This document shows, one piece after another, positions 31,625 to 33,384 of a stretch of 40,568 bases of DNA. The DNA comes from Nitrospinota bacterium. Lineage in GTDB: Bacteria; UBA8248. The position numbers were made by a program, and so were the translations under genes. How positions within the stretch are numbered: position 1 is the first letter of the stretch; each line of letters starts with the position of its first letter. The DNA is taken from assembly GCA_026706735.1 (NCBI GenBank), contig JAPOYD010000157.1:1-40568 (forward strand), given 5' to 3'. The notes below the pieces were generated by a model, which was not told the DNA's origin, did not search any database, and was given only the letters and a program-made list of their open reading frames with translations.

Positions 31625-31786
31625 ATGGCGAAAAGAAATCCCCGAAAACCCGCCAGAGTCAAAAACGGCCTGCTCGAATATCTGCTCCTGAGCGTTCTCG
31701 TACTCGTCGTCGTGGTAACGGCGTGGACGCTCTATGACAACGGAATCATCGACACGTTTGTCGAACTCATCAAAGGCGCTCGCTAG
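31625..31786 (+). CDS. Small single-pass membrane peptide (53 aa), function unknown
   Basis: The frame encodes a basic N-terminus (MAKRNPRKPARVK), then NGLLEYLLLSVLVLVVVV, a continuous helix of about 20 hydrophobic residues, and a short polar C-terminal tail. Gly followed by LLEYLLL resembles the Gly-x-E-Y junction of Flp-type pilins, though Glu is two residues closer to the Gly than usual, and no pilus genes are near. It could equally be a small membrane-complex subunit. A TATAAT box lies upstream; the ribosome site is weak (GGGAA). It is convergent with the AhpD-like gene. Confidence 0.5.
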   Translation: MAKRNPRKPARVKNGLLEYLLLSVLVLVVVVTAWTLYDNGIIDTFVELIKGAR

Positions 31787-31799
31787 AGCGCAATGCGCC

Positions 31800-32408
31800 T
31801 CAGAGCCTCGCTTCCTCTCTTGCAAGGTCTGCAGGTTCCGCCGCACTCTCGAGCGCTTCATCCAGACGAACGCCCAGCCCCAGCGCCACACGATTGATGA
31901 AATTAAAATAGGCCGTCACCGACACCAATTCGACGATGGCGGCGTCATCGAGCCCCTCCTCTCTCAGTTTTTCCACGTCTGATTTTCGCACCTCGGCCGG
32001 TGATTTCGTGAGCTTGCGGGCAAAGCCGAGCATCGCCCGTTCGCGATCCGTGAGATTCGCGCTTTCCGGGTCGCGCTTGAGCGTCTTTGCGCGCTCATCA
32101 TCACCCAACGCCAGACGGAGAAACTCCCCGTGGCTGGTGGTTCAGTAGAAACAATCGTTTTCCTTCGATACCGCCGTGGCGATGAACTCGCGCTCCGCTT
32201 TCGTGAGATTCTCCTCCGTCTGCATCAGTGTGACGTAGAGTTGGCGGTGCGCGCGCATGATCTCGGGGCGGTTTCCGAACGGACGCGAGATGTTGGCGAT
32301 GTAGCCGAGCGCCTTGAGATTGGCGTCGTAGGTTTGTTTTACGATTCCCGCCGCCTCTTCCACAGGAACGGTATATACCCAAGCGGGCGCTCTTTTGGCA
32401 TCGCTCAT
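31800..32408 (-). CDS. AhpD-like (CMD-family) peroxidase-related protein with in-frame TGA, candidate selenoprotein
   Basis: Two frames separated by a single TGA (32144-32142) make one 202-residue protein, with no frameshift. The sequence is C86-F-Y-[TGA89]-T-T-S-H93, exactly the AhpD/carboxymuconolactone-decarboxylase redox motif C-x-x-C-x-x-x-H, with TGA in place of the second Cys. Glu74 lies 12 residues before Cys86, as in AhpD. Downstream coding runs another 113 codons with family-like helices (ERAMLGFARKLTKSP; VTAYFNFINRVALGLG). A SECIS-like hairpin follows the TGA. This fits selenocysteine insertion giving CxxU. Alternatives are a nonsense mutation or sequencing error. The ATG at 32408 has GGGGGAG upstream. 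Likely reduces hydroperoxides. Confidence 0.85.
32110..32134 (-). promoter_or_regulatory. SECIS-like hairpin after in-frame TGA
   Basis: Counting bases after the TGA on the minus strand, bases 8-18 pair with 22-32 (nine of eleven positions, one being G-U). The mismatches are G-G and C-C. With the closing pair opened, the apical loop is GUUUC, bases 18-22. Bacterial SECIS elements sit right after UGA with a G near the start of the loop, and this spacing is in the accepted range. It is within the coding sequence. Hand-folded only. Confidence 0.5.
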
Positions 32409-32453
32409 CGGTCCGCATCTCCCCCAAAAATTCAACATATCAAAAGTAAACGA

Positions 32454-32478: not shown

Positions 32479-32577
32479 AGCAAACAAAATCAGGCGGGAA
32501 AAACCAGGAGCCGGCTACACAGCTTCGCCTAAAAAGTGATAGCCTCCCCAAAATCGCCACACACCAGAGGTTGTTCA

Positions 32578-33384
32578 TTGGCCCGGCTCATATCCAAAAC
32601 ACTGCCAACACGCGACGGCCCGCTCGCCTATACGGAAGCGGGAGCCGGCGATAAAGAACCCCTCCTCCTGGTACACGGCGGCTTCGGGGCGGCGAACCAC
32701 TGGGCGAAAAATCAAGCCTTCTTCGCCGCGCACTACCGTACTTTGGCGATCGATCTCCCCGCCTTCGGAGAAAGCTACCGGCCGCCCAAACCGCACACGG
32801 CCGCATCCGTCACGCTGGGCATCGGTCGGCTGCTCGACGGGCTTGGAATCGAGAAGTGCCTGTGCGTGGCTTTTTCCTTCGGAGCGACGATGAGCGTGAC
32901 GTATTGCCAGGAATACGCCTGGCGATTCAAGAAACTCGCTCTGCTGGGTCCGGGGGGCTTGGGGATCACGGGCGACGTCAAGCTCGGCGATGAGCGCCGC
33001 GCCACGAGGGAGATGAGTCCTGAGGAGAAGCACGCGGTGTTCGTTCACAACCAAAAGGCGCTGATGTTCAAAAATCCGGCCTACGCAGATGAGGCATACC
33101 TCTCCCAAGCATGGAAGAACCTCAAGAATTCGAGGATGAACATCTACGCCATGAACCGCGAGCCGTATCTGCCCGATCTGCTACCGGCGTGTGCCATGCC
33201 GTTGCTCGTATTGTGGGGAGACGCCGACGTCATCGCCTACCCCACGCCCGAAGAACGCCGGAGCGCTTGCCAAAAAGCCGCCCCCCATGCAGAAGTGGAT
33301 ACTATTCCCGACGCCGGACACATGGCCCAGTGGGAGCAACCCGAGGTATTCAACGAACGCGTACTAAAATTTCTAAGGTCTTAA
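32578..33384 (+). CDS. Alpha/beta-fold hydrolase
   Basis: This 268-residue hydrolase has an oxyanion region LLVHGGFGAANHW, nucleophile VAFSFGATMS (Ser100; AFSFG, first Gly of GxSxG is Ala), acid in LLVLWGDADVI and His in PDAGHMAQWEQPE. The start is TTG at 32578 with AGAGG seven bases upstream; a GTG at 32536 gives an unconvincing N-terminus. It leads an operon with an SDR and a flavin-reductase-like gene. It is divergent from the AhpD-like gene. Substrate unknown. Confidence 0.87.
   Translation: MARLISKTLPTRDGPLAYTEAGAGDKEPLLLVHGGFGAANHWAKNQAFFAAHYRTLAIDLPAFGESYRPPKPHTAASVTLGIGRLLDGLGIEKCLCVAFSFGATMSVTYCQEYAWRFKKLALLGPGGLGITGDVKLGDERRATREMSPEEKHAVFVHNQKALMFKNPAYADEAYLSQAWKNLKNSRMNIYAMNREPYLPDLLPACAMPLLVLWGDADVIAYPTPEERRSACQKAAPHAEVDTIPDAGHMAQWEQPEVFNERVLKFLRS

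Follow-up and report, generated by a model that had tools for sequence, protein, structure and literature searches.

AhpD-like proteins carrying selenocysteine (Sec) at the second position of the redox pair (CxxU) were described in 2005 from the Sargasso Sea, with 27 sequences assigned to COG2128 (PMC1088965), and again in 2008 from the GOS data, where the AhpD-like 1 family comprises 299 sequences (PMC2398784). A 2026 review likewise lists an AhpD-like protein (TIGR01926, CxxU; PMC13188914). For the cysteine-containing relatives, PMC3141380 describes a relay in PA0269 formed by Glu36, Cys48, Tyr50, Cys51 and His55, with the spacing Glu-x11-Cys-x-Tyr/His-Cys-x3-His also found in M. tuberculosis AhpD, whose third relay position is occupied by His.

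The window, i.e. the whole stretch of 40,568 nucleotides analysed here (contig C181 of the source genome), harbors on its minus strand, at 31800..32408, a gene for a further protein of this type. Domain, CxxU motif and a SECIS-like hairpin past the UGA are common to the window gene and the AhpD-like CxxU family, and no difference at family level was found; the window gene comes from another lineage, within which the hairpin sequence is conserved. It thus adds a well-supported member to a selenoprotein family that has been described since 2005. An earlier note on this DNA had stated that AhpD-like selenoproteins occur in some bacteria and in marine metagenomic data, and had proposed that the internal UGA is read as Sec in a CxxU protein, a proposal well supported by the sel genes, the TGA column and the coding conservation past the TGA described below.

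Gene and reading frame

The frame extends from an ATG at 32408 to a terminal TGA at 31802-31800 and contains one internal in-frame TGA (32144-32142), so that the earlier description of a single TGA interrupting one open frame holds in sequence and translation alike. With the internal TGA counted as an amino acid, the product is 202 residues long and the TGA codon corresponds to residue 89, embedded in the translated context SKENDCFY-(TGA)-TTSHGEFL. The assignment of the gene rests on this translation, on profile matches and on the lineage comparison. Upstream of the ATG, GGGGGAG at 32419..32425 was recognised by eye as a probable Shine-Dalgarno sequence. A standard gene caller would truncate this gene at the TGA even though it is a full selenoprotein gene. 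A mechanical scan of the window gives 33 frames joined by a TGA, and relatives were compared for the frame at 32144 only. An Rfam search of the window returned no match above the gathering scores.

Family, active site and predicted structure

The protein matches Pfam CMD with 36.4 bits (cut-off 23) and the NCBIfam model TIGR01926 (peroxidase-related enzyme) with 152.7 bits, above the curated cut-off of 81.8, and therefore belongs to the latter family. The redox pair C-x-x-C/U of TIGR01926, with a His four residues on, corresponds to Cys86, residue 89 and His93. Cys86 (32151..32153), the sole Cys codon of the gene and by translation and conservation the presumed resolving partner, and residue 89 (32142..32144) occupy columns that do not vary across 21 sequences if U is treated as C, and His93 (32130..32132) is conserved in at least 90%. 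The CFY-U-TTSH context and the TIGR01926 score together agree with the note, which had placed the TGA at the second active-site Cys of the AhpD type. By conservation, Glu74 (32187..32189), Tyr88 (32145..32147) and His93 are the equivalents of Glu36, Tyr50 and His55 of PA0269, with the relay taken from PMC3141380; the spacing of Glu74, Cys86, Tyr88, residue 89 and His93 matches that relay, and the note had thus been right to place Glu74 at the correct distance. M. tuberculosis AhpD and PA0269 are nevertheless more distant relatives and differ from the window protein, which has Sec at the second redox position; in M. tuberculosis AhpD, moreover, the third relay position is the His mentioned above instead of Tyr.

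Membership in NF041238 (AhpD_rel_CFYUT), whose name contains the CFYUT motif present in the window protein, is ruled out by a score of 88.3 bits against a curated cut-off of 175. Homology to this model of 357 positions extends over residues 4-190, which match its positions 146-343 only.

The best sequence matches in the PDB are 2oyo, 3c1l, 2pfx, 6k40 and 2prr (E 1.9e-30 to 1.9e-24). The TIGR01926-type structures 2oyo, 3c1l, 6k40 and 2prr share both sequence and fold with the window protein, and in the residue-level alignment, which was made for 2oyo, the latter has a Cys at the column of the TGA. An AlphaFold2 model computed from five sequences is of moderate quality (pLDDT 70.6, pTM 0.65, low at both ends), with block means of at least 74 from residue 51 to 170. 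Foldseek retrieves with this model the same structures as the sequence search, with 6k40 in first place (E 8e-10) at a TM-score of 0.66, normalised by query length, and an rmsd near 8 Å; the best Foldseek matches superpose on the model with rmsd values of 6.9-8.6 Å. Helix 87-101 of the model starts at the CxxU motif.

The TGA column in relatives

The lineage sample consists of 18 genomes, which are returned alike by searches at family, class and phylum level, so that the two broader searches do not widen the sample. They yield 18 matches at E<=1e-25 including that of the window itself, and the TGA stands at the second redox position in 17/17 of the others. Close orthologues are found in five other genomes, four of them complete and 64% (G016), 62% (G010), 60% (G011) and 60% (G015) identical to the window protein. 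The orthologue of G014 (L053, L100; contig C198) is disrupted by two or more frame changes and keeps the TGA; it may be a pseudogene or reflect an assembly error.

Among four relatives in named genome contigs, three have the TGA at this column and derive from MAGs labelled Gemmataceae, Planctomycetes and Planctomycetota, while the fourth (L080, labelled Gammaproteobacteria) has Cys. Plasmid records with a match number 565; the six examined, taken from the 15 listed, are all CxxC. Alignment with Cys-containing homologues, which the note had suggested as a check, hence places a Cys at the TGA position in all seven examined (L080 and the six plasmid matches). In the lineage search no genuine stop was seen at the TGA column among the matches listed. 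Those with an internal TAA or TAG were considered as counter-examples and dismissed, as 9/9 listed (L045 among them) are a CxxC paralogue, with motifs such as CHFC, CAYC and similar, that stops at its normal end.

No gap is needed to align the window gene with its four complete orthologues, over 81 codons ahead of the TGA and 112 codons past it. After the TGA the pairwise amino acid identity is 58-76%, with dN of 0.19-0.36 and dS of 1.4-2.9, and the region past the TGA is therefore maintained as protein. The constraint is slightly weaker there than before the TGA, where the pairs share 60-83% of their residues at dN values of 0.11-0.32 (for two of the ten pairs dS is not computable). The gene thus shows one of the marks of a bacterial selenoprotein gene, namely a UGA within the frame that falls on a conserved Cys column and is followed by conserved coding sequence.

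Selenium machinery

The source genome is a draft of 3.79 Mb in 191 contigs, 93.7% complete and 3.2% contaminated. The sel genes that the note had proposed to look for are all present in it: selA (578.2 bits, cut-off 267.9) and selB (382.9 bits, cut-off 242.25) lie about 1 kb apart on contig C22, selD (334.3 bits, cut-off 125) on contig C112 and the tRNA-Sec gene (75.8 bits, gathering score 47) on contig C114, the latter being reported by ARAGORN as tRNA-SeC with anticodon tca, that is, tRNA-Sec(UCA). In 14 control genomes the same cut-offs are passed by selB in 2, selA in 1, selD in 2 and tRNA-Sec in 5. The selD gene (L010) itself carries an in-frame TGA within GG-U-GSK, and judged by its sequence selenophosphate synthetase is probably a selenoprotein too. 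In 4/18 lineage genomes (G002, G009, G013 and G017) selA is below the cut-off or was not found. AhpD genes of the TGA type are contained in three of these, G009, G013 and G017, the last at 98% completeness (8% contamination) and the other two at 70 and 79%.

The hairpin past the TGA

The GU-loop hairpin reported in the note downstream of the TGA is indeed present at 32131-32115 (minus strand; identified by folding and conservation). It starts 10 nt past the TGA and consists of a 7 bp stem and the apical loop GUU; a SECIS-type hairpin just past the UGA with G (GU) in its apical loop is a further mark of bacterial selenoprotein genes. Its folding energy does not differ significantly from that of shuffled sequences (z -1.51; 13/200 fold at least as well) and was rejected as proof. 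Standard pairs account for 97.8% of the pair cells across 13 SHGEF/SHGAF-type sequences, compared to 33-71% when the partners are slid by 1-3 columns, and the loop residues G, U and U are invariant. In these 13 sequences no stem pair is changed on both sides, and covariation was accordingly discarded as proof as well.

The site shows synonymous constraint. Five of the seven codons of S H G E F L R (CAC GAG TTT CTC CGT) are identical in the window gene and the four orthologues, which is reached by 1/20,000 within-gene synonymous-codon shuffles in a test whose seven codons were picked after the hairpin had been seen and which ignores relatedness. Over the whole gene, 15/87 degenerate columns with a single amino acid have one codon only, and five of these 15 lie among the seven codons. 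In the five SHGQ-type relatives only 2-3 of the 7 pairs form, and in at least two of them (L047 and L037) a shifted hairpin is possible. L113 and L114, which belong to the seven Cys homologues, also fold well at this site, L113 even better than the window. Given these two homologues, the insignificant energy and the missing covariation, the hairpin alone proves nothing.

Alternative explanations for the internal TGA

Three other explanations were weighed and rejected, each on the evidence that stands against it. The TGA could have arisen in a normal CxxC gene by nonsense mutation, or through faulty assembly or base calling, which would be in line with the draft state of the genome, the lack of the gene in all six sister species (see below) and the broken copy of G014. 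A base-call error is implausible because all 17 other lineage matches carry the same TGA, which also recurs in three of the four relatives from named MAGs, and protein-level constraint past the TGA speaks against a pseudogene; both are very unlikely, and mutation or error is the least probable of the three explanations. General reassignment of UGA in the lineage to an amino acid such as Trp, Gly or Cys could account for the in-frame TGA of many AhpD/CMD genes of the genome and of selD. Against this, release factor 2 is present above its cut-off (501.8 bits, cut-off 370), the window gene itself terminates with TGA, the TGA codons of the AhpD-like genes sit on redox positions, and selA, selB, selD and tRNA-Sec are all found. 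In addition, 36 long and mostly non-overlapping ORFs of the window, tallied mechanically, end with TGA in 13, TAG in 13 and TAA in 10 cases, which is a rough sign only of TGA termination, since some of these ORFs are on the wrong strand. Reassignment is likewise very unlikely, if a shade more conceivable than mutation or error.

UGA could also act as a real stop, the functional product being either a short form of 88 residues or a downstream fragment reinitiated at the TTG at 32108, where a mechanical ORF does begin. When selenium is low, Sec insertion is expected to fail and to leave a short product, which would fit such a truncation. However, the match to CMD spans the TGA, as does the CxxU...H motif, and the codons directly past it (SHGEFLR), which a fragment reinitiated further down would not need, are conserved in five orthologues. 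Truncation is therefore highly improbable, albeit the least remote of the three. With frame, homology, TGA column, conserved hairpin and presence of the sel genes all obtained by computation, the internal stop codon is, judged from sequence, almost certainly read as Sec at the second redox position of the AhpD-like protein.

Proposed mechanism and function

With high confidence, the gene encodes a 202-residue, all-helical TIGR01926-type protein in which SelB and tRNA-Sec(UCA) would decode UGA 89 as Sec under the direction of the hairpin. Sec89 would then sit at the N-terminal end of a helix, activated by a proton relay of Glu74, Tyr88 and His93. In this arrangement Sec89 may reduce a peroxide or another oxidised substrate, Cys86 would resolve it under formation of a selenenylsulfide, and a thiol donor would re-reduce the latter. 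In M. tuberculosis AhpD the second redox residue is reportedly the attacking one.

Peroxidase activity, which the note had proposed, is suggested by the conserved active site, which contains a counterpart of each of the five residues in the relay of AhpD-like peroxidases, with Sec replacing one Cys. A selenoprotein serving instead as thiol-disulfide adaptor, or as an enzyme with another substrate, is a serious alternative that we rate at somewhat below an even chance: the debrominase Bmp8 appears among both the sequence and the structure matches, and PA0269, which has the same relay Tyr, shows only weak H2O2 activity according to PMC3141380.

Probable Sec-containing AhpD paralogues and a UxxU form

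The AhpD family is unusually often selenium-built in the source lineage. In the source genome, 14 AhpD/CMD genes were found with TGA at the second redox position (contigs C181, C155, C79 with two, C99, C178, C10, C28, C76, C117, C47, C31, C188 and C95), compared to two with CxxC (C84, C75); ten further CMD genes have neither CxxC nor CxxU in the stretch read. The genes on C95 and C117 show unusual redox spacers (CQPU, CNNU).

One paralogue (L018, contig C79, 15253-15783) has TGA at both redox positions, GGUYGUAMNHG, resulting in a UxxU motif (UYGU), and scores 95.1 against the TIGR01926 cut-off of 81.8. Its relative on C155 reads CYGU. The double-TGA paralogue is found in 7/7 genomes of the genus as well as in G014, G015, G016 and G017, and thus in at least 11/18 lineage genomes (further loci L038-L043 and L103-L106). 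In the available part of the review (PMC13188914), the motif UxxU is listed under Prx-like, mercuric-reductase-like and FmdB families, and AhpD-like proteins are listed with CxxU, one AhpD-like entry being a fusion with three Sec. In the selenoprotein literature on UxxU, as far as covered, no description of an AhpD-like UxxU was found, a negative that is no proof of novelty. Sec is thus probably the usual AhpD-type active-site residue in this lineage, and the conserved paralogue, with both redox Cys replaced by Sec (U-Y-G-U), is likely to be a diselenide enzyme that is absent from the review table as far as available. The paralogous Sec and Cys sites of the lineage, the UxxU form included, offer a direct comparison, within one fold, of the advantage of Sec over Cys.

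Gene neighbourhood and history

The gene is missing in 6/6 sister species of the genus, in which its flanks are contiguous (L101, L102 and L089-L092, compared to window 31800-32430), and it is therefore dispensable. Junction alignment reveals short remnants of the gene ends in several of these species, with break points that vary by species; G008, for example, retains roughly 30 bp from the 3' end and 60 bp from the 5' end, the corresponding lengths in G004 are about 66 and 26 bp, and G007 has no remnant. A DUF3090 gene on one side and a short-chain dehydrogenase on the other flank the orthologue in G011, G014, G015 and G016, which agrees with the contig of the window; the contig of G010 includes the DUF3090 side only. 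The simplest reading is that of an old gene of the lineage which was lost by the sister species, and transfer back into the species of the window is conceivable.

The immediate neighbours of the window gene are the DUF3090 gene and an alpha/beta hydrolase, and no adjoining partner gene was recognised. The hydrolase (32536-33384) is located between the AhpD-like gene and the short-chain dehydrogenase; it is found likewise in the two sister-species stretches compared (G007 and G008), and no match to it was found in the surroundings of the orthologue of G011, G014, G015 and G016. On the plus strand, a small ORF of 53 codons (31625-31786), which by eye resembles a single membrane helix, runs convergent to the AhpD-like gene.
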